Virus record (IMG/VR): IMGVR_UViG_3300008111_000075 | Span: 1 to 30,372 of that record | Origin: a virus | Reading direction: 5' to 3' (one strand) | DNA: 30,372 bases | Shown: one piece after another, positions 1,447 to 27,211 of the stretch | Layout of the letters: each line of letters begins with the position of its first letter | Position numbering within the stretch: position 1 is the stretch's first letter | Position numbers and translations under genes: made by a program | Notes under the pieces: model-generated | The model's input: the letters and a program-made list of their open reading frames with translations, nothing else | What the model was told of the DNA's origin: nothing | The model's database searches: none

Positions 1447-1661
1447 CATACGTAGGACTTTTAACAGAATCGCAAAAAAATGAGCTTGTCGGTCAGCTTT
1501 ACGATGAGGACAGCTACTTTAACCCAATACAAGATATTGATGACAATTGGATAATTTCAGTTGAAGAAATCGACCAATGCGTAAACCCCGAATTTCAATG
1601 GGTAAAAACCTTACCTTTGATTGAATATAAGCCAAAACCTGAACCACCACTACCAATGTAA
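1443..1661 (+). CDS. Small phage protein of the fibre/lysis operon (paralogue 1)
   Basis: A 72-residue acidic protein of unknown function. It starts with LLTESQKNELVGQLYDEDSY and ends with WVKTLPLIEYKP followed by a proline-rich tail. A relative lies on the other side of the lysin gene (2291-2479) and shares the pattern G-L-L, an aromatic-rich centre, W-[IV]-[IL], and WVK-x-LP-[LI]-IEYK at the end. Tryptophans at regular positions suggest a small beta fold. The gene overlaps its upstream neighbour by 4 nt and ends 1 nt before the lysin start. Proteins of this kind often follow fibre genes in Bacteroidota phages and could be fibre-associated, but nothing in the sequence proves it. Confidence 0.6.
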   Translation: MTYVGLLTESQKNELVGQLYDEDSYFNPIQDIDDNWIISVEEIDQCVNPEFQWVKTLPLIEYKPKPEPPLPM

Positions 1662-4507: not shown

Positions 4508-4824
4508 TAAAACCATACTGAATCCTCCTCATCAGACTCATAAGCCTCCATTAAAGTTTCAGAAAATAGGGTTTCAAGTTCATATTTGCTACGTTCAAAC
4601 AAGATAGCAGCTTCTTCGATTGTGACCGATTTATTATAGTCAGTAATGAAGATGTCATCGAGTTCAAAATATGCTCCGTAATCGGGTTCTATTTGACATC
4701 CGTAGGAGTCTCTTGAGCCTCTTTCTTCTTCGACAAATGTTCCTGTCAATCTTACATAAACTTCGTTTGTAGGGAAGTTATCGCATTCCATATAAATGCC
4801 TGTGCTAAATGTGTTGTTGTTCAT
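4507..4824 (-). CDS. Acidic hypothetical protein, first gene of the ssb operon
   Basis: A 105-residue, strongly acidic protein (end: EAYESDEEDSVWF) with no recognised domain. The centre (YFELDDIFITDYNKSVTIEE) suggests a small alpha/beta fold. It is the first gene behind a well-formed Bacteroidota promoter (4855-4885), with AACTACCAA 3 nt before the ATG, and leads a short operon with the 41-residue protein, ssb and the 27-residue membrane protein. The similar net charge to SSB's tail and its position suggest a DNA-metabolism accessory or host-takeover protein, but this is a guess. Confidence 0.6.
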   Translation of the reverse strand: MNNNTFSTGIYMECDNFPTNEVYVRLTGTFVEEERGSRDSYGCQIEPDYGAYFELDDIFITDYNKSVTIEEAAILFERSKYELETLFSETLMEAYESDEEDSVWF

Positions 4825-4827
4825 AAC

Positions 4828-4836
4828 TTGGTAGTT
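4828..4836 (-). promoter_or_regulatory. AACTACCAA start-site motif
   Basis: Reads TTAAAACTACCAAGTT and then ATG on the minus strand. The same sequence, including GTT-ATG, precedes the gene starting at 8859. It is one of several copies tied to early gene starts; it does not resemble a Shine-Dalgarno sequence. Confidence 0.6.
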
Positions 4837-4888: not shown

Positions 4889-6616
4889 TCACAGCACATT
4901 TTTTAAATTTATTTGCACACATCTACCGATAAGACCTGGAGCAAATCTTGTTGTGCCTCTTTTCGATGCTCCTTTATGCCTTAGAAGTACAGTTGAATAG
5001 CTTATTGCCCAAGGCGTTCGACTGAGAATCATTTTTACCCAAGTAGATGTATTCAGAATTAACAGATACTTTTCTTTGTTTTCTTCTACAACTCTCAATC
5101 CTAATCTCTGAAGCCTCTCATCAGCTGCCGATTGCTTAATTTTTGCTTGTGGCTCATATTCCGAAGCATATTCAACAAGCTCTCCGACTGTTACAGTACC
5201 AATAAAATCTCCTTCGATGCGAGTTTCATTCTGCAAAATTGTCTGTAGGCATCTTTCTTCATCCGTTAAGTCTGCTGCTTGATTCAATAGTCCTTTCATT
5301 TTTAGAAGTTCGACAGATTCTTCACAAGCTTGCTCAAATGTAACTACTTCATCGTTCCAGGTGTGCCACCATCCACCAAGTAATGCACCGAACTGGTCAC
5401 CTATTGCCCGATCATTCACAGCTTCTGTAATCACTTCAGTAAATATTGCAATGGACTGCAAGATGTTCGGCACAAGATTTACCATCCTCGCTATGAATCT
5501 CACGCCAAAATCCTTGTTAATGACTTCTTTTTTTCTCTTGTTTAATGCATTGAACTTCTCAGAGTCTTGATGCTTTGCAAGTTCAAATACTGTGAATCTT
5601 CTCTTGTCGCTATCATTTACCAACTGAGGATTTATACTGACAAACAAAAAACAACTGCGGACAAAATAGTCCGTTGCTTTTCCATCCTTTCCACCTTTCG
5701 GAATGGCAGGAGATTTTTCAGAGCTTCCTGCCCGGGCAAGTGCAATAACTTCCTGCATTCGCTTTGCGGCATTTTCATCGTTACCTTCAGACTCATCAAT
5801 CGTGACTGGCATAGCATCAGAATTGAGTTTCTGCCTTATCGCTGCCTCTGTCGCTGCTGTTCCTTGAGCATTGATTGAAAACTCTCCTAAGACCTGATGA
5901 ATAATCTGCTCAAGTACATAGGTCTTTCCGTTTCCTCTTGGGCCTGTAATCCAAATGTGAGGCCTCCAAGATAATGCTCCACAAATTGGTGCTATCGCTA
6001 ACCATCCTGCCAACATCTTACCATCTGCATCTGTCTGCCAATTAAGTCCTGACAAGATTTTTGTAAGGAGTGAACATTCGATTCTATCCATTGATGACTC
6101 AATCGGAATTCGGATGTTCTTTCGCATCTCATAGGTGAACTCCGTTTCAATGCTGCCAAGGTTATATCGAATCTTCTCGCTGAGTAATTGCATTCCACTA
6201 TGGAAAATAATTCTGTCGGATTCTTTCCAGGCTCCTCTGCCTCGGATATTCTGCAAATCAAAATATCCTACTTTGTTACAGCATTGAACTAAGAAGTTGG
6301 AGATATATTCTGACTTGGAAAAAACTTCGCGATCCCAAAACTCTAATGGTGCCAAAGCAGTAACGTGCTGCTTGGTGAACTTTCCTGTAGTGAATGCCAA
6401 TATAGCATTGCTTACTTTGGAGTAGAAGTAGAACCTTTGCGCTCTCGCTTCAGTATCCCATCCTAATGGCTTAAAATATCCACCGATGAAGCCTCTCGAA
6501 TCAGTTGTTATAGAGTTCTCCGGTGCTGCCTCCGCTTTTGGCTTTTTGGCTCTTTTCTTTACTGGTGGTAATACATCTTCGGGATTGTTATCCCATTTAA
6601 TTGGTAGTTTTGTCAT
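4889..6616 (-). CDS. AAA+/SF3-like replicative helicase (primase-helicase type)
   Basis: A 575-residue ATPase. After a basic start (VKKRAKKPKAEAAPENS) and a region of about 190 residues without a clear motif, it shows Walker A GPRGNGKT (225-232), Walker B VTIDESEG (271-278), a sensor-1 like FLFVSINP (about 323-330) and DKRR (337-340), a likely arginine finger. This order fits the helicase half of phage primase-helicases (D5/SF3-like) that unwind the fork. The catalytic motifs of a primase are not evident, so priming may come from elsewhere. The C-terminal part (HKGASKRGTTRFAPGL) may bind DNA. It is the last gene of the long minus operon and overlaps the preceding gene by 4 nt. Its first codons carry the AACTACCAA motif. 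Confidence 0.75.
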   Translation of the reverse strand: MTKLPIKWDNNPEDVLPPVKKRAKKPKAEAAPENSITTDSRGFIGGYFKPLGWDTEARAQRFYFYSKVSNAILAFTTGKFTKQHVTALAPLEFWDREVFSKSEYISNFLVQCCNKVGYFDLQNIRGRGAWKESDRIIFHSGMQLLSEKIRYNLGSIETEFTYEMRKNIRIPIESSMDRIECSLLTKILSGLNWQTDADGKMLAGWLAIAPICGALSWRPHIWITGPRGNGKTYVLEQIIHQVLGEFSINAQGTAATEAAIRQKLNSDAMPVTIDESEGNDENAAKRMQEVIALARAGSSEKSPAIPKGGKDGKATDYFVRSCFLFVSINPQLVNDSDKRRFTVFELAKHQDSEKFNALNKRKKEVINKDFGVRFIARMVNLVPNILQSIAIFTEVITEAVNDRAIGDQFGALLGGWWHTWNDEVVTFEQACEESVELLKMKGLLNQAADLTDEERCLQTILQNETRIEGDFIGTVTVGELVEYASEYEPQAKIKQSAADERLQRLGLRVVEENKEKYLLILNTSTWVKMILSRTPWAISYSTVLLRHKGASKRGTTRFAPGLIGRCVQINLKNVL

Positions 6617-8862: not shown

Positions 8863-8871
8863 TTGGTAGTT
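8863..8871 (-). promoter_or_regulatory. AACTACCAA start-site motif
   Basis: Minus strand TTAAAACTACCAAGTT followed by ATG, identical over 19 nt to the copy at the gene starting at 4824 although the proteins are unrelated. This makes a nucleotide-level signal more likely than chance. Confidence 0.6.
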
Positions 8872-8929: not shown

Positions 8930-10484
8930 ACTTTTTGTAACTTTTTTTGAAATTATTTTTATTTTCTATTCTCTTCCATCCATAGAATGAGTTCCAGGCA
9001 CTATCGATTGCAGTCTTTAAATCTTGATGTGATGTAGATACAGCGTTTATTTTGTACTTTGAATTTATTTTATCTATAGTATTATTATCTTTCATCACTC
9101 TTGATTCAAAAATATGCTTCACCCAAAAATCTTTGTACTTCATTCGCTCTTTCAATTGCCATAATTCCTCCAGGGTAACGCATTCATATCTTTCTTTAGG
9201 CTTGGCTCCTTGCTGCATATTTAAAAAATCATCCAAGGACCTATCATCTTTTACAGCAACTGCATTCTCAATCTTCTTTTGTTCTTTTTGTTTTACCTCT
9301 GGTATCAATCCGCACTCAGGACAGCACTCTTCAGTCTTTTCAAAAACAGCATAACAGCCTTGGCAAACATTATAGTTCTCTTCGACTTCGTTCTTTTTTT
9401 TCTTTTTCTTCTTGATGCCATTCAAATCCCATTCACGAGGTGTGAGCGGATGTAAATGTCTTACCATATTATTAACGTGATCTAAAATGATGCATTTGTC
9501 TTTCCCGGCACAAGGTCTCAATCCCCTACCAACTATCTGAAGATATAGACTGAGTGATGCCGTTGGTCTGAGCATACCTACTACAGCGACAGCAGGAATA
9601 TCTGTTCCCTCGCTGATTAGGTTACAAAACGTAACCACCTGGATAGTTCCATCCGCAAGTCCTTTGAATATCCTATCAACTTCTTCATCTTTTTGCTCTC
9701 CGTGAACTGCCTCAGATGTGTATCCTGCATCTCTGAAAGTCTTGGCCATTTCCTGTGCGTGGAAGATTGTGGAACAGGAATAGATTGCAGGCGCACCATC
9801 AGCAAGTCTTCTATATTCCTTGACTATGTCTCCGCAAATTGCAGCATCTGTCATTACATCAGATATTTCGCCCAAATCATATTCCCCGAAATTATTCTGC
9901 TTCAAGTTGTCCAAAGCTTCAATTTTCTTGAACATATAATATGCCGGCATAACAAGATTACCCATCTGAATCAATTCTGCAATTGCAGGCCCGAGAACCA
10001 TCCGCTCAAACATATCTCCGAGACCTTTTCCATCCAATCTCCAAGGTGTTGCAGTAACACCAAGCATAAATACATCGGAGTAGTATTCCATTATCGCTTT
10101 CCAGGTTCCTGCGGATGCGTGGTGAGCTTCATCTATTATTATAAGGTCAGGTGTCGGGACTTCATCCAATCTGTTCTTTAATGTCTGCACACTACAAACC
10201 TGTGCTTGGTATTGGTAGTTTTTAGGATGTCCGCCTGCAATGATTCCGTGTTGCAAGTTATATTTATTGCATCGCTCAGAGATTTGTCTCACAAGGTTCT
10301 TCTTATGCACCAGGAAGAAAACTTTCTTGTTTCTGCTCATCGCCTGCTCTGCGATATGAATGAAAGTTTCAGTCTTGCCCCCACCTGTGGGAAGTACAAA
10401 CAAAACTCTTTTGCTTCCTTGCTTAAAGTGACCTCGAATAGAATCTACTGCATCGGATTGGTATGGTCTAAGAGTTACGCTCAT
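8925..10484 (-). CDS. SF2 DEAH-box DNA helicase with C-terminal zinc ribbon
   Basis: A 519-residue helicase counted from the ATG at 10484. Motifs: LRPYQSDAV (Q-like, 5-13), LPTGGGKT Walker A (31-38), DEAH (118-121), TATP (144-147), and QIVGRGLRP motif VI (316-324), so both RecA-like domains are complete, as in UvsW/RecQ-like phage SF2 enzymes that remodel forks and branch points. Cys374, 377, 387/388 and 391 form a zinc-ribbon-like finger, preceded by eight lysines. An upstream TTG at 10511 is possible but sits deep in the HTH gene; the ATG still overlaps that gene by 17 nt, so the two are probably coupled. Confidence 0.85.
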   Translation of the reverse strand: MSVTLRPYQSDAVDSIRGHFKQGSKRVLFVLPTGGGKTETFIHIAEQAMSRNKKVFFLVHKKNLVRQISERCNKYNLQHGIIAGGHPKNYQYQAQVCSVQTLKNRLDEVPTPDLIIIDEAHHASAGTWKAIMEYYSDVFMLGVTATPWRLDGKGLGDMFERMVLGPAIAELIQMGNLVMPAYYMFKKIEALDNLKQNNFGEYDLGEISDVMTDAAICGDIVKEYRRLADGAPAIYSCSTIFHAQEMAKTFRDAGYTSEAVHGEQKDEEVDRIFKGLADGTIQVVTFCNLISEGTDIPAVAVVGMLRPTASLSLYLQIVGRGLRPCAGKDKCIILDHVNNMVRHLHPLTPREWDLNGIKKKKKKKNEVEENYNVCQGCYAVFEKTEECCPECGLIPEVKQKEQKKIENAVAVKDDRSLDDFLNMQQGAKPKERYECVTLEELWQLKERMKYKDFWVKHIFESRVMKDNNTIDKINSKYKINAVSTSHQDLKTAIDSAWNSFYGWKRIENKNNFKKSYKKY

Positions 10485-10656
10485 TTTCAGCTTTTTTAAG
10501 TTCCGTTTCAATTCTTTCTAAATAATCGAATGTTATAGGCTCATTTCGTTTCCAATAGTCTAATGTCTGTCTATGTATTCCTGTTCGTTTACATAGTTCT
10601 GTAATAGTAATACCAATCTTGTCGGCTCGTTCTTTGATTCTTTGGTAAGTCTTCAT
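10468..10656 (-). CDS. Small Cro/CI-type HTH regulator
   Basis: A 62-residue protein: KERADKIGITITELCKRTGI then HRQTLDYWKRNEP is a helix-turn-helix of the Cro/CI (HTH_3) type, and the C-terminus is a short charged helix. It has no separate oligomerisation domain, so it would bind as a simple dimer. I use the ATG at 10656; an upstream TTG (10689) would add 11 residues without homology. The gene lies next to a divergent promoter region holding an 18-bp palindrome, which is the classical position of an autoregulating phage repressor or Cro. It is co-transcribed with the SF2 helicase. Confidence 0.75.
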   Translation of the reverse strand: MKTYQRIKERADKIGITITELCKRTGIHRQTLDYWKRNEPITFDYLERIETELKKAENERNS

Positions 10657-10694
10657 TTCTTTTAAGTTTTTTGAAAAAATATTATACAATAATG

Positions 10695-10722
10695 CAAAAG
10701 TAATAAAATTTTATTATCTTTG
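10695..10722. promoter_or_regulatory. Divergent early promoters sharing one palindrome (site c)
   Basis: The palindrome GTAATAAAATTTTATTAT (10700-10717, 17 of 18 positions) is flanked on the right by TATCTTTG (10715-10722) for plus-strand transcription of the RecE-like gene, and on the left by TACTTTTG read on the minus strand (10702-10695) for the HTH gene. Both -7 boxes overlap the palindrome ends, so one bound dimer could control both directions. The -33 elements are poor, which may mean activation or weak basal expression. Confidence 0.7.
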
Positions 10723-10750: not shown

Positions 10751-10759
10751 AACTACCAA
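10751..10759 (+). promoter_or_regulatory. AACTACCAA start-site motif
   Basis: The last A of the motif is the first base of the start codon of the RecE-like gene, so the motif directly abuts initiation. Confidence 0.55.
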
Positions 10760-11514
10760 TGACAAATCAAGAGTATCACTCAAAAACAGATTTTCTAAGC
10801 AAGACTTTGCTTGATCAGATTCGCAAATCTCCTGCTCACTTCCAGGCATATATTAATGCCGAAAAAAAAGAAGCTACTTCAGCTATGAACTTCGGAAGCT
10901 TAGTTCATTCTGTACTATTCGAACAGGATAACTTCGCAATTATGCCAACCTGTGACAGAAGAACTAAGGAAGGTAAACTACTTTATGAGGCATTCTTAGA
11001 AAATGCTCAAGGTGTTGAACTAATCGTTACAGAAGAACAGCACGAACAAGCTTTGAAAATCGCTCAAGCAGTTCTACAGCATCCAAAAGCATCGGCACTA
11101 CTTCAAGATGGTAAAGCAGAGCTTCCGGTATTCGGACAAATCGAAGGCATTAACTTTAAATGCAAACCCGATTTTCGCAATACTAAGTTCAATGTATTGC
11201 TTGACCTTAAAACAACTACAGACAGTTCTCCTTCAGAGTTTGCAAAATCTGTATGGAATTATCGTTATCACGTTCAAGCAGCATTATATATGGACTTGAC
11301 TAAAGCAGATAGGTTCTTCTTTATTGCTGTAGAAAAAGAATCTCCGTTCAATGTTGAGGTGTACGAACTTGACCAGGATGCAATACAGAAAGGTAGAGAA
11401 GATTACCTGGCAGATATTGCAACTTACAAAAAATGTGTCGAAACAAACAACTGGCACGGATACACAGAAGACAAGTCAATCAATATTCTTTCACTCCCTA
11501 AATGGGTTAAATAA
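10759..11514 (+). CDS. RecE-like exonuclease (PD-(D/E)xK superfamily)
   Basis: A 251-residue protein with the layout of the RecE C-terminal nuclease domain. SAMNFGSLVHSVLFE contains the conserved GxxxH (His50), then AELPVFGQIEG (Glu121), KCKPDFR (Asp138), LLDLKTT (Asp149, Lys151) and the YHVQAALYMD helix (about 170-179) with the conserved Gln. Such enzymes degrade the 5' strand of double-stranded DNA ends to give 3' tails for annealing. The next gene is a probable annealing protein, so the two form a two-component recombination pair. It is the first gene behind the divergent promoter at 10715-10722. Confidence 0.8.
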   Translation: MTNQEYHSKTDFLSKTLLDQIRKSPAHFQAYINAEKKEATSAMNFGSLVHSVLFEQDNFAIMPTCDRRTKEGKLLYEAFLENAQGVELIVTEEQHEQALKIAQAVLQHPKASALLQDGKAELPVFGQIEGINFKCKPDFRNTKFNVLLDLKTTTDSSPSEFAKSVWNYRYHVQAALYMDLTKADRFFFIAVEKESPFNVEVYELDQDAIQKGREDYLADIATYKKCVETNNWHGYTEDKSINILSLPKWVK

Positions 11515-11520
11515 CTACCA
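11513..11520 (+). promoter_or_regulatory. AACTACCA start-site motif inside the recombination operon
   Basis: Lies 2 nt before the ATG at 11523 and overlaps the stop codon of the preceding gene. There is no promoter here, so the motif is not just a promoter companion; a second full AACTACCAA follows at 11539-11547 within the first codons. Confidence 0.5.
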
Positions 11521-11522
11521 CA

Positions 11523-12050
11523 ATGTCAAACATCACAAAACTACCAACATTCCAGGAACTAATCACAGATTCTGAAGACAGCCTCAAGCAAAATGCCTTA
11601 ACTGTACTGCTAAATCAAGACCCTCCGAAGGCTTGGTTACAAGAACATCCAATGATAAAAGGCTATCGTTACATCTCAATTGAGAAAATTGAGTACCTTT
11701 TAACACGAATTTTCACAAAATGGTGGGTAGAAGTGAAAAACGTTCAAGTTGTCGCAAATAGCGTTGTAGTCACGGTTAGGCTCTTTGTAACAAATCCGAT
11801 AAATGATGAAATAATGTTTCAAGATGGTATCGGAGCAGCACCAATACAAACAGACAAAGGAGCAGGTGCAACTGATTGGAATGCAGTAAAGACCGATGGT
11901 GTACAGAAAGCAGCACCCGCAGCCGAGACATACGCAATAAAAGACGCAGCGGAGAAATTTGGCAAGATTTTCGGCAGAGATGTGAGCAGAAAAACAACGA
12001 TGGACTATAATCCGTTACTGAAAAAAAGCGATTTTAACGACCAAGTTTAG
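11523..12050 (+). CDS. Probable Rad52-like single-strand annealing protein
   Basis: A 175-residue protein. RYISIEKIEYLLTRIFTKWW at about 49-68 and the strand pattern NVQVVANSVVVTVRLFV are followed by QDGIGAAPIQ, then AETYAIKDAAEKFGKIFGRD. This is the Rad52/Sak arrangement of an early helix with aromatic residues, a beta hairpin, an invariant-like G-x-G turn, and a helix with A-x-x-DA-x-x-x-FG. Together with the RecE-like gene 8 nt upstream it would pair complementary strands during recombination-dependent replication. RecT/Erf type is the alternative. It is the last gene before a terminator. Confidence 0.65.
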   Translation: MSNITKLPTFQELITDSEDSLKQNALTVLLNQDPPKAWLQEHPMIKGYRYISIEKIEYLLTRIFTKWWVEVKNVQVVANSVVVTVRLFVTNPINDEIMFQDGIGAAPIQTDKGAGATDWNAVKTDGVQKAAPAAETYAIKDAAEKFGKIFGRDVSRKTTMDYNPLLKKSDFNDQV

Positions 12051-12069: not shown

Positions 12070-12101
12070 GAGAGCCTTATTTTTGAGGCTCTCTTTTTTT
12101 T
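12070..12101 (+). terminator. Intrinsic terminator of the recombination operon
   Basis: Stem GAGAGCCT (12070-12077), 8-nt loop, AGGCTCTC (12086-12093), then eight T. It lies 20 nt after the annealing-protein stop. Confidence 0.9.
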
Positions 12102-12106
12102 GCCCT

Positions 12107-12381
12107 GTAACAGCCTTTTTTTTTGTTACGCTTTTCGTTTCTATTAACTTATTGATTCTCAATACTTGTAACAATGTAACGATTGTAACGGAAAACAATA
12201 TATATATATATAGAGATTCTATTATGTATATATATGTGTATGTATATTCGTGTTACATATGTTACATAGTTATAATTATATTATTATTAAGTAGTTAGGT
12301 GTAACAAAATTGTGTTACTGCTATGTTACGTTTGTTACAGTTAATTTTAGTAAAAAAAAGACATATTTTTGCACTTGTTAC
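12107..12381. repeat. Twelve GTAAC/GTTAC repeats: candidate replication origin
   Basis: The 446-nt stretch 12102-12547 has no credible gene. Within 275 bp the pentamer GTAAC or its complement GTTAC starts at 12107, 12125, 12168, 12176, 12185, 12252, 12261, 12301, 12314, 12325, 12334 and 12377, nearly always preceded by T. Three direct copies at 12168-12189 are spaced 8-9 bp, three inverted ones at 12314-12338 are spaced 9-11 bp, and a TA-only tract (about 12198-12242) lies between the clusters. Iterated short sites around an easily melted tract, next to replication genes, is what iteron origins look like. A regulatory array is the alternative. Confidence 0.55.
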
Positions 12382-12436
12382 GTCATAGGGTTTTCATATA
12401 GGGGGAAGGTTATTTGGTAGTTCCCTTCCTCCTTTT
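12364..12436 (+). ncRNA. Candidate small RNA or structured late leader
   Basis: TATTTTTG (12364-12371) fits a -7 box. Beyond it GGGGGAAGG (12401-12409) pairs with CCTTCCTCC (12424-12432; eight Watson-Crick pairs and one G-U), leaving a 14-nt loop TTATTTGGTAGTTC, then TTTTC. The loop contains TTGGTAGTT, the exact complement of the AACTACCAA motif at early gene starts. An RNA of about 60 nt would present this as an accessible seed. No good -33 element is seen and the T tract is short, so it may instead be the leader of the terminase operon. Confidence 0.4.
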
Positions 12437-12547
12437 CAAAAATCTTCGATTTAAGGCACTTTTTTTTGTTTTTGATAGTAGAGTACCACTTTAGAAATAA
12501 AATTGAATGTAGGTACTAAAGAATGATAAATAAACATATTTTAACTT

Positions 12548-12901
12548 ATGCCTTTTCAACCTGGGAACAGTCTAAGCAAGGGAAGACCCAAGGGAGCAAT
12601 AAATAAGACCACTTCCGAAACCAAAGCCTTCCTTGCTCGAATTTCGAATAAACTCGGTCAACGTATCGAGGAAGACCTTGATATGATGGAACCTAAAGAC
12701 AGGGTAAAAATTTGGCTTGAACTACAGGAATACTTAATACCAAAGCTATCCAGGACAGAGATAACTGGTGAGGATGGTGGAATGATAGAGATACAACAAA
12801 CCCTAAAATTAGAAAACCTTGGCATTGATCAACTCAGAGAGCTTGAAAGAATTGCTGAACTTGCAGCGGATTCGACAGCTGATAGCAGCCAAGGATTTTA
12901 A
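12548..12901 (+). CDS. Terminase small subunit candidate
   Basis: A 117-residue protein directly before the large terminase. The start (FQPGNSLSKGRPKGAINKTT) is the basic GRPKGAxN motif typical of small proteins found at this site in many phages, followed by a helical part (DRVKIWLELQEYLIPKLSRT) resembling the oligomerisation helices of TerS. TerS proteins recognise the packaging site and feed DNA to the motor. The function rests mostly on position and the N-terminal motif. It overlaps the downstream frame by up to 83 nt. The 5' leader of about 110 nt is AT-rich without an obvious consensus promoter. Confidence 0.65.
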   Translation: MPFQPGNSLSKGRPKGAINKTTSETKAFLARISNKLGQRIEEDLDMMEPKDRVKIWLELQEYLIPKLSRTEITGEDGGMIEIQQTLKLENLGIDQLRELERIAELAADSTADSSQGF

Positions 12902-24655: not shown

Positions 24656-24914
24656 AAAGGAATTTGCCCGCAGATTGGCAGAGCGAATAGAACAGATGCA
24701 AGACATCACAGCTGAGTCGCTCTCTGAGATGCTTATCAGTTCGGGGATTCTCTCTGAGCGCAGAGTAGTACAGTATTGTGCTATCTGTGAGTTTTACGAT
24801 TCGATTGGTCAAAAAACAAAAACGCAGACAATTAAGGAACTGTCTGCGAAGTATAGTGTATCTGAAAGAGTTCTTATTGAGCTAACAGGTCGTGAACGTC
24901 GTTTCTCTGTTTAA
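24633..24914 (+). CDS. Small HTH-like protein at the end of the tail operon
   Basis: A 93-residue protein (from the ATG at 24633; 24624 would add three residues). It is helical, and the end TIKELSAKYSVSERVLIEL looks like a helix-turn-helix, preceded by YCAICEFYDSIGQKTKTQT. It may bind DNA. It overlaps the CxxC gene and, unusually, its last 41 nt overlap the end of the convergent sigma factor gene. No terminator is visible between the two operons. Confidence 0.55.
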   Translation: MVSTESIKKEFARRLAERIEQMQDITAESLSEMLISSGILSERRVVQYCAICEFYDSIGQKTKTQTIKELSAKYSVSERVLIELTGRERRFSV

Positions 24915-25635
24915 GCTTGTGTAATGCTTGTTGATGCAGCTGTCTGATTCTTTGTTGTGAGTATTCAAGTTTATCTGCAATCTGCCGAAAGCTTAAAGGA
25001 AAGTCATCCAGGTATAAACTTTGAATGATAAAATATTCTTCTTTAGTAAGATTTTTAAGGATTGATTTTATCCTCTTGCTAAAACTTAGATTCTCGATTA
25101 CTCTTGCAGTATCTTCATCGGATGCAAACTGCTTTTCAATTTCATCTTCATCTTCTGAATTATTTTCAATGCTCAAAACTTTTGGGTAATGATGCATATC
25201 TCTTAGAAAATGTTTTGGAAAGATGTCGAGTTCTTTTAGTTCTGCTTCATCGTACTTTTCTTTAAGTTCAACATAGGTTCTAATGTAACGATAATTTTTC
25301 GATGGAATACGGATTGTACTTTGCGTATCGTAAATGTATTGAAGTATTCCTTGTCGGATATAGAACCTTGCAAAAGAAATAAACTTAAATCCTCTTGTAG
25401 GGTCAAACAAATCAGCTGCTTTTATCAATCCGATCATCCCTTCAGAAATTAGGTCTTTAATATCAGTTGCGCTATTATTGATTTTTTTGGCTTCCGATAC
25501 TACAAACAGCATATTGTGTTTGACCAGTTGTTCAGGTGTTGCTGTTACTTCTGCTTCAGGTTTAAGTGGTGGGTATCTTGCGGCCTCTCTTAAAAAGTGC
25601 TGTAGCGATTTATTGGTAAATCTCGTTTCGCTCAT
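24874..25635 (-). CDS. Phage-encoded sigma-70 family factor
   Basis: A 253-residue sigma factor. Region 2 spans about 38-110: VKHNMLFVVSEAKKI, DLISEGMIGLIKAADLFDPT, then GFKFISFARFYIRQGILQYI, the polymerase-binding and -10 recognition part. Region 4 spans about 193-245: LTKEEYFIIQSLYL and SFRQIADKLEYSQQRIRQLH, an HTH that reads the -35 side. An acidic linker (NNSEDEDEIEKQF) separates them, and region 1.1 is absent. It resembles the host primary sigma and may redirect host RNA polymerase to late phage promoters. It overlaps the glucosaminidase gene by 4 nt and is the last gene of its operon. Confidence 0.85.
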   Translation of the reverse strand: MSETRFTNKSLQHFLREAARYPPLKPEAEVTATPEQLVKHNMLFVVSEAKKINNSATDIKDLISEGMIGLIKAADLFDPTRGFKFISFARFYIRQGILQYIYDTQSTIRIPSKNYRYIRTYVELKEKYDEAELKELDIFPKHFLRDMHHYPKVLSIENNSEDEDEIEKQFASDEDTARVIENLSFSKRIKSILKNLTKEEYFIIQSLYLDDFPLSFRQIADKLEYSQQRIRQLHQQALHKLKQRNDVHDLLAQ

Positions 25636-26156: not shown

Positions 26157-26269
26157 TGTGTTTGTTTTGAAGTTAAAAAAATGCGTTTTTGAATTATCCC
26201 CTGAACGCTAACAGTGCCAACATACGATTTGGAATACTTAGGCGTATCATCTTCGTTCCATACTCAGCG

Positions 26270-26892: not shown

Positions 26893-27200
26893 CTTGTTGT
26901 GTAGAATGCTTTTGAATGCTGTTCGAATTGCTCTTTAGTGCGAACTGTGATAAATGCATCTTTATGCGCTCGCTTCCAGGTATCAAGCATAAACCAAGCT
27001 TCTTCGTGCGTAGTGTATGGAATTAAGATTCTGTGATACAAACCTGCTTGTTCGACATAGGCTTGGTCTTGTGCCATTGTGAGATGTTCGGCACGCACTA
27101 AGTCAATACGTTTGGTTGACATTAACTGAATGCAATAGACTGAATCTTGTTGCTGTGCCATTGCAGTAACTGCAAATAGGAGAAAAAATAATACTTTCAT
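26889..27200 (-). CDS. Secreted SPOR-like domain protein
   Basis: A 103-residue protein with a signal peptide (MKVLFFLLFAVTAMA) followed by a domain of the SPOR pattern: YCIQLMSTKRIDLVRAEHL, YVEQAGLYHRILIPYTTHEE and KRAHKDAFITVRTKEQFE. SPOR domains bind denuded glycan strands at division sites. I use the ATG at 27200, which gives a clean signal peptide and has AACTACCAA just upstream; the frame is open to 27290. Together with the glucosaminidase in the same operon it suggests that the phage manipulates the periplasmic wall. The domain call is by eye. Confidence 0.65.
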   Translation of the reverse strand: MKVLFFLLFAVTAMAQQQDSVYCIQLMSTKRIDLVRAEHLTMAQDQAYVEQAGLYHRILIPYTTHEEAWFMLDTWKRAHKDAFITVRTKEQFEQHSKAFYTTR

Positions 27201-27202
27201 TG

Positions 27203-27211
27203 TTGGTAGTT
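27203..27211 (-). promoter_or_regulatory. AACTACCAA start-site motif
   Basis: Minus strand TTTTAAAACTACCAACA and then ATG of the SPOR-like gene. There is no promoter in the 28 nt between this gene and the upstream one, so it acts, if at all, on the mRNA. Confidence 0.55.

Follow-up and report, generated by a model that had tools for sequence, protein, structure and literature searches.

The window, i.e. the whole stretch of DNA analysed here, comprises 30,372 bases and corresponds to one IMG/VR virus record, from an uncultured phage. It carries genes for the terminase, the head and tail proteins, a Rad52-like annealing protein, an exonuclease-VIII-type exonuclease, a primase, an SSB protein, a helicase and a sigma factor. 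The gene of this sigma factor (regions 2 and 4; 24874-25635, minus strand) adjoins the endolysin gene, and its product possibly serves late promoters. Several genes are preceded by TAnnTTTG promoter boxes and, since TAnnTTTG is the -7 consensus of the Bacteroidota sigma-ABfr (PMC7366714), the host probably belongs to this phylum. No relative of the exonuclease, or of the hairpin described below, was found in the GTDB species genomes, and no near relative of the phage among 50,697 phage records. A tyrosine recombinase was not found in the window record and 13 related records, nor a serine recombinase in the window record and 9 related records; the phages are therefore probably virulent, keeping in mind that the records may be incomplete.

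A motif repeated at start codons

The 9-mer AACTACCAA recurs at the starts of several of these genes. Its copies, together with the 8-nt copy and one neighbouring promoter, are the following:

4828..4836, minus strand: putative target site of the 105-aa gene preceding ssb, ending 3 nt upstream of its ATG (4824); predicted duplex of -12.7 kcal/mol
6601..6609, minus strand: putative target site of the primase/helicase gene (4889-6616), within its codons 3-5
8863..8871, minus strand: putative target site of the 88-aa gene heading the HNH-to-primase operon, ending 3 nt upstream of its ATG (8859)
10212..10220, minus strand: copy lying about 270 nt into the helicase gene, where it encodes K-N-Y-Q; not counted among the targets
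10715-10722: TAnnTTTG promoter before the exonuclease gene
10751..10759, plus strand: putative target site overlapping the exonuclease ATG (10759); in all motif-clade relatives, absent from the sister-clade leader
11513..11520, plus strand: putative 8-nt target site between the exonuclease stop and the Rad52-like ATG (11523); in all motif-clade relatives
11539..11547, plus strand: second putative site of the Rad52-like gene (codons 6-9), less conserved, part of the relatives having CTA and part CTT
27203..27211, minus strand: putative target site of the signal-peptide protein gene, upstream of its ATG (27200); the orthologues found in the motif clade have AACTACCA

The six 9-mers and the 8-base copy at 11513 listed by an earlier sequence-only reading of this DNA were all recovered at their positions, and the list is extended by two copies that it omitted, one in the helicase gene (10212-10220, minus strand) and one in an intergenic region (12414-12422, minus strand). 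The excess over chance that it had claimed is borne out, the window holding 8 exact copies for a mean of 0.32 and a maximum of 3 in 300 dinucleotide shuffles. When one mismatch is allowed, 21 matches are counted for 8.1 expected, a number reached in 0 of 100 shuffles. Seven of the nine copies of the octamer AACTACCA are located between -25 and +20 of a start codon, a zone covering 3.1% of the positions, the two others being the helicase-coding copy at 10212 and the intergenic copy at 12414. An unbiased ranking of octamers over the 41 genes likewise gives AACTACCA and ACTACCAA as the ones common to most gene starts.

The motif is not at a constant position with respect to the ATG, the range being -13 to +20. 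Five sites are upstream of an ATG as had been described: those at 4828 and 8863 end 3 nt before it, that at 27203 ends 2 nt before it, that at 10751 overlaps it by 1 nt, and the last is that at 11513. Two sites are indeed inside genes, in codons 3-5 (6601) and 6-9 (11539), the latter slightly beyond the "first six codons" given previously. The leaders at 4824 and 8859 do have a stretch in common, ATTAAAACTACCAAGTTATG, of 20 nt and not 19. As had been noted, the motif is not a Shine-Dalgarno sequence, is linked to start codons and is common to a functional set of genes. Its absence from head and tail gene starts holds for this window, whereas its restriction to early-type genes does not hold across the clade, the endolysin start carrying a site in three relatives. 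A sequence one mismatch away from the motif, CACTACCAA, was also observed at 1648-1661 (plus strand), a few bases before the likely start of a lysis-type gene (1663); its conservation was sought in the relatives and none was found.

A predicted small RNA with a complementary loop

The gap that holds the intergenic copy runs from the terminator of the exonuclease-Rad52 operon to the gene starting at 12548, just before the large terminase gene. Read on the plus strand, it falls in the loop of a hairpin, in the following setting:

12070..12093, plus strand: terminator of the exonuclease-Rad52 operon (10-bp stem then T8), separating the operon from the predicted small RNA gene
12364..12371, plus strand: TATTTTTG, a match to the Bacteroidota -7 consensus TAnnTTTG; invariant in 11 distinct sequences
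12376..12467, plus strand: predicted phage small RNA of about 92 nt, its ends placed from the -7 box and the T8 run
12400..12433, plus strand: hairpin AGGGGGAAGG / CCUUCCUCCU with the 14-nt loop UUAUUUGGUAGUUC; -17.3 kcal/mol
12414..12422, plus strand: loop segment TTGGTAGTT, antisense to the start motif; loop invariant in all relatives
12460..12467, plus strand: T8 run, presumed 3' end of the small RNA

The 101-nt segment holding the hairpin has a folding z of -2.79. Conservation extends from ATATTTTTGCA to GACACTTTTTTT in 11 distinct sequences, and the 8-bp core of the stem is kept in all relatives, where the stretch from the promoter to the hairpin varies in length and sequence and the loop, UUAUU(U)GGUAGUU, is invariant. 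A T-run of 7-8 is found at a conserved position, with one interruption in two relatives, and divergence resumes after it in part of them. The T8 lies about 26 nt beyond the stem and is hence not a textbook terminator. In one relative (L233) one base is gained on both arms of the stem (GGGGAAAGG/CCUUUCCCC); the other stem changes are few, namely one G-C/G-U exchange and one outer A-U/U-A exchange. Most pairs of the stem never vary in this clade and the covariation counts are not above those of shuffles, so that the statistical covariation is weak. Rfam gave no match near the gathering score in the window. Directly upstream of the predicted start of the small RNA, and reaching into it, a 276-bp gap (12106-12381) contains 17 of the window's 62 TGTWAC matches, for 30 expected in the whole window; this cluster looks like iterons or regulator sites.

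The intergenic hairpin loops of the window hold only 16 distinct 7-mers, i.e. 0.1% of the 7-mer space. In an unbiased screen of start k-mers against such loops, the pair formed with the small RNA came first in the window and in four relatives. Pairing of the loop with its complement would extend over only 7-11 bp, and the duplexes predicted at the six starts (UUGGUAGUU against AACUACCAA) range from -10.9 to -12.7 kcal/mol, the opening of a target site costing 0-1.3 kcal/mol. When the loop was permuted, 7 of 1000 permutations reached the 8 starts observed, a result that is significant and not extreme.

The sequence-only reading had proposed that the motif could be an operator on the DNA. A regulator such as the 73-aa HTH protein (10468-10689), whose gene adjoins the exonuclease promoter, could be the ligand, and three sites are downstream of TAnnTTTG promoters. 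Nevertheless, the site at 11513 occupies an 8-nt stop-start gap between two genes of one operon, that of the primase is coding, the core is not palindromic, the distance from the promoters is variable, and no site is present in the leader of the HTH gene itself. Since an operator does not predict an exact complement in a conserved hairpin loop either, we regard this explanation as extremely unlikely.

Conservation of the motif and a second pair in the sister clade

In the related phages of the motif clade (clade A), 65 of the 83 AACTACCA octamers are at starts, mostly at -13 to -7 or +7 to +20; the equal frequency away from starts that would have spoken against a start-linked element was thus not observed. 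An unbiased ranking of upstream octamers finds AACTACCA in 22 of 35 distinct contexts, a 57-fold enrichment. In the more complete relatives the sites number up to about ten and include those of the gene for a 97-aa protein, the endolysin gene and others.

A copied leader cassette devoid of function, in which the motif is inherited as leaders duplicate, would account for the 20 nt that the 4824 and 8859 leaders have in common and for the copies carried by duplicated 105-aa genes. The other sites have only the core in common, with different flanks and positions, and this core is kept while the leaders diverge. The 4828 site is present in all relatives, even with a different upstream promoter sequence or a duplicated gene, and the core persists where the leader of the 105-aa gene has been replaced (L228 and L233). 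Some clade-A sites stand before non-homologous genes: the 8863 site is kept where the 88-aa gene is replaced by a non-homologous one (MKNHTY / MKNLTE / MKNDTF). The 11513 site is retained in L138 despite a different gene upstream. The coding copy is also fixed at synonymous sites, the AAA CTA CCA of the primase being unchanged in 15 distinct sequences of 78-100% protein identity. By comparison, an identical codon was kept for no more than 3 of the 40 invariant Leu residues and 1 of the 14 other invariant Pro residues (a Pro column split by the aligner was corrected by eye). These data make a cassette without function very unlikely. The copy inside the helicase gene, at 10212, is missing from the more distant motif-clade relatives.

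In the sister clade (clade B), where the exonuclease is about 63-69% identical, none of the 28 copies of AACTACCA in 542 kb is at a start, and a search for the clade-A hairpin pattern found none. The upstream-octamer ranking gives there another motif, AAACTTCA, among the top octamers and at the most starts (21 of 34 distinct contexts, 51-fold). A hairpin of the form CCGCCUG-UUUU(U0-2)GAAGUU-CAGGCGG-U8 is present in 60 contigs, in a unit located directly downstream of ssb, with a promoter like TTGCAA-N20-TATTTTT(G/T/A) followed by a variable 5' part. Its loop, UUUUGAAGUU, is complementary to the start motif AAACTTCA and to AACUUCA; no variation of its stem was found among the contigs. Because intergenic loops hold only 16-46 distinct 7-mers per genome, i.e. 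0.1-0.3% of the 7-mer space, a chance match between loop and motif in both clades is unlikely, this figure being optimistic given the low complexity of the sequences and the choice of the motif. The support is weaker for clade B: the small RNA comes first in the start/loop screen in part of the genomes only, and the start motif is clear only in G007, G005 and G001, being weak or modest in the others. The pair is conserved within clade A, and clade B has both a different loop and a different start motif; in the orthologues of the gene starting at 27200, clade A has AACTACCA at the very place where several members of clade B have AACTTCAC. This looks like a coupled change of the loop and its targets between the clades.

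Several other observations were made in these phages. The endolysin leader of the window (26157-26190, minus strand) carries the sister-clade motif AACTTCAAAA, and in G017, G019 and G020 AACTACCA is directly before the endolysin ATG, which suggests that the endolysin gene has been exchanged with its leader between clades. In G007, a 43-kb sister-clade record, the clade-B hairpin is present at both ends (L302 at 61-84; L289 near its end), suggesting a terminally redundant, complete genome. About 10-130 nt after the rad52 stop, clade B also has a conserved, pseudoknot-like RNA (L146, L158, L145, L179, L166, L193) with its own TATATTTG promoter box and a T-run. Its stems show compensatory changes (GGCTTCAC/GTGAAGCC, GCAACCAC/GTGGTTGC, GGCACTAC/GTAGTGCC, GACTTCAC/GTGAAGTC) and it has no match in Rfam. 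It was rejected as the clade-B counterpart of the small RNA, its sequence not matching the start motif of that clade; the L146 group alone has TGAAGTT in this RNA, by chance as far as can be told. A third pair of loop and motif was sought in distant phages sharing only the exonuclease (G023-G030) and gave weak three-start matches, no better than chance. Finally, the collection-wide pattern TTTGN{12,40}AACTACCAANNATG gave more than 120 matches, nearly all by chance and inside genes, and the corresponding loci (L016-L135) were set aside.

The comparison of the clades bears on two further explanations. The first, also put forward by the sequence-only reading, is a translational enhancer favoured by the Bacteroidota ribosome near starts in replacement of the Shine-Dalgarno sequence. 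The start sites are A-rich and mostly unstructured, and Bacteroidota favour A at -3, -6, -12 and -13 (PMC6847099). An enhancer of this kind would be expected at the starts of the sister clade, from which the motif is missing although the genes are homologous; moreover its position varies between -13 and +20 and includes codons 3-9, its C-containing core is invariant and not merely A-rich, and the complement in the hairpin loop is left unexplained. We thus hold the enhancer to be quite unlikely. The second is that a phage RNA-binding protein, like RegA of T4, recognises AACUACCA at the starts and represses or activates translation, the hairpin being unrelated. Such a protein would explain an RNA motif linked to starts at variable distances from the ATG; it explains neither the exact complement in a conserved loop nor the second pair of the sister clade. 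A minus-strand transcript would show the motif itself in the loop, but the conserved promoter box and T-run are on the plus strand. A protein of this type seems unlikely to us. The enhancer or operator reading is right only in part, in that the element is linked to starts and probably acts at the RNA level, as an antisense target.

Proposed mechanism and comparison with known systems

We consider it likely, on the basis of these sequence comparisons, that AACTACCAA at gene starts is the target of a phage-encoded trans-acting antisense small RNA (about 12376-12467, plus strand) which blocks 30S binding. The predicted RNA would be transcribed from its own TATTTTTG promoter to the T8, and its 14-nt hairpin loop would display UUGGUAGUU as a preformed seed, able to pair in the cell with the single-stranded AACUACCA over 8-11 bp (about -11 to -13 kcal/mol). 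Six mRNAs would be targeted, i.e. those of the exonuclease, the Rad52-like annealing protein, the primase, two small genes heading operons and the signal-peptide gene. Bacteroidota initiate translation without a Shine-Dalgarno sequence, in dependence on an unstructured, A-rich start region (PMC6847099), and no obvious homologues of Hfq or ProQ are present in Bacteroides (PMC7366714), a situation which suits a preformed loop as seed. A duplex at -13 to +20 could prevent 30S binding, so that one RNA would turn down the replication and recombination genes together. Repression appears more likely than activation, because an 8-11 bp duplex there would fall in the region normally covered by the 30S subunit, and the sites are open to begin with. 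The predicted small RNA gene follows the early exonuclease-Rad52 operon and precedes the terminase genes, and it has a -7 box of the housekeeping type; with this location and this box, a brake growing with genome copy number, or a shut-off of replication and recombination at the onset of late expression, would fit, both being speculative.

In a broader view, to which we give even chances, a family of virulent phages of the Bacteroidota type would run a regulon of their own replication, recombination and lysis genes with a single small RNA that needs no chaperone and with an 8-nt tag common to the targets, placed at or within the start codon region of each. The loop/tag pair would be rewritten whole between clades, leading to orthogonal RNA codes which might be copy-number brakes or confer superinfection specificity.

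To our knowledge, including the literature searched, small RNAs of phages directed at phage genes are limited to one or a few targets each, and Hfq is required by many of them. A comparable case, or a use of the motif in this sense, was not found in a search of the openly licensed literature made mostly on titles and the beginnings of abstracts. The apparent novelty lies in a single predicted RNA matching many starts that bear the same tag, in phages whose host phylum has no obvious Hfq, and in a second clade having its own, different loop/tag pair.

Among trans-acting RNAs, GibS of Bacteroides thetaiotaomicron is predicted to pair with target mRNAs (PMC7366714). It resembles the predicted RNA in acting in trans and in a member of the Bacteroidota, and differs in being chromosomal, with metabolic targets and different seeds. 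VpdS of phage VP882 and PreS of lambda are trans-acting phage small RNAs, the former affecting both phage and host mRNAs (PMC12197685). Both depend on Hfq in Proteobacteria, whereas the predicted RNA belongs to a host group without obvious Hfq and its targets carry a uniform motif. The plasmid RNAs ColE1 RNA I and R1 CopA are structured and restrain replication by antisense loops. They are cis-encoded and fully complementary to one RNA, in contrast to the trans-encoded RNA proposed here, of which about 9 nt are common to many targets.

The closest parallels are phage antisense RNAs. The sar RNA of P22 blocks translation initiation (PMC12197685). The c4 RNA of P1 and P7 prevents translation of a phage mRNA by pairing in the region of its ribosome-binding site; the complementary sequences of c4 are thought to be in loops, and c4 is tied to the heteroimmunity of P1 and P7 (PMC12197685, section 7). 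Like the predicted RNA, sar and the OOP RNA of lambda are phage antisense RNAs acting on phage genes, but each has a single target and OOP, antisense to cII, acts through RNase III, whereas the RNA predicted here would act in trans by a short loop seed. With c4 it would have in common a small phage RNA whose loop faces the translation start of phage mRNA, as seen here in sequence complementarity and predicted duplexes. It differs in that c4 acts on one target, ant, and one loop here matches six to ten separate starts; in its own predicted promoter, far from most targets; in the Bacteroidota host group; and in that no integrase was found. Neither an ant-type antirepressor target nor the co-transcription of c4 was found: promoter and terminator are separate, and the matching starts are those of the exonuclease, Rad52-like and primase genes and of small genes. 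In its mode of action the predicted RNA would come closest to c4 (P1/P7) and sar (P22), but its targets and gene layout set it apart from the c4 kind. If this is true, it would represent a post-transcriptional regulon of unusual simplicity for a bacterial virus, with six to ten starts read by a single RNA, and the two clades would provide a natural set of matched, orthogonal loop/tag pairs for the study of translational repression without Shine-Dalgarno sequences or obvious Hfq.
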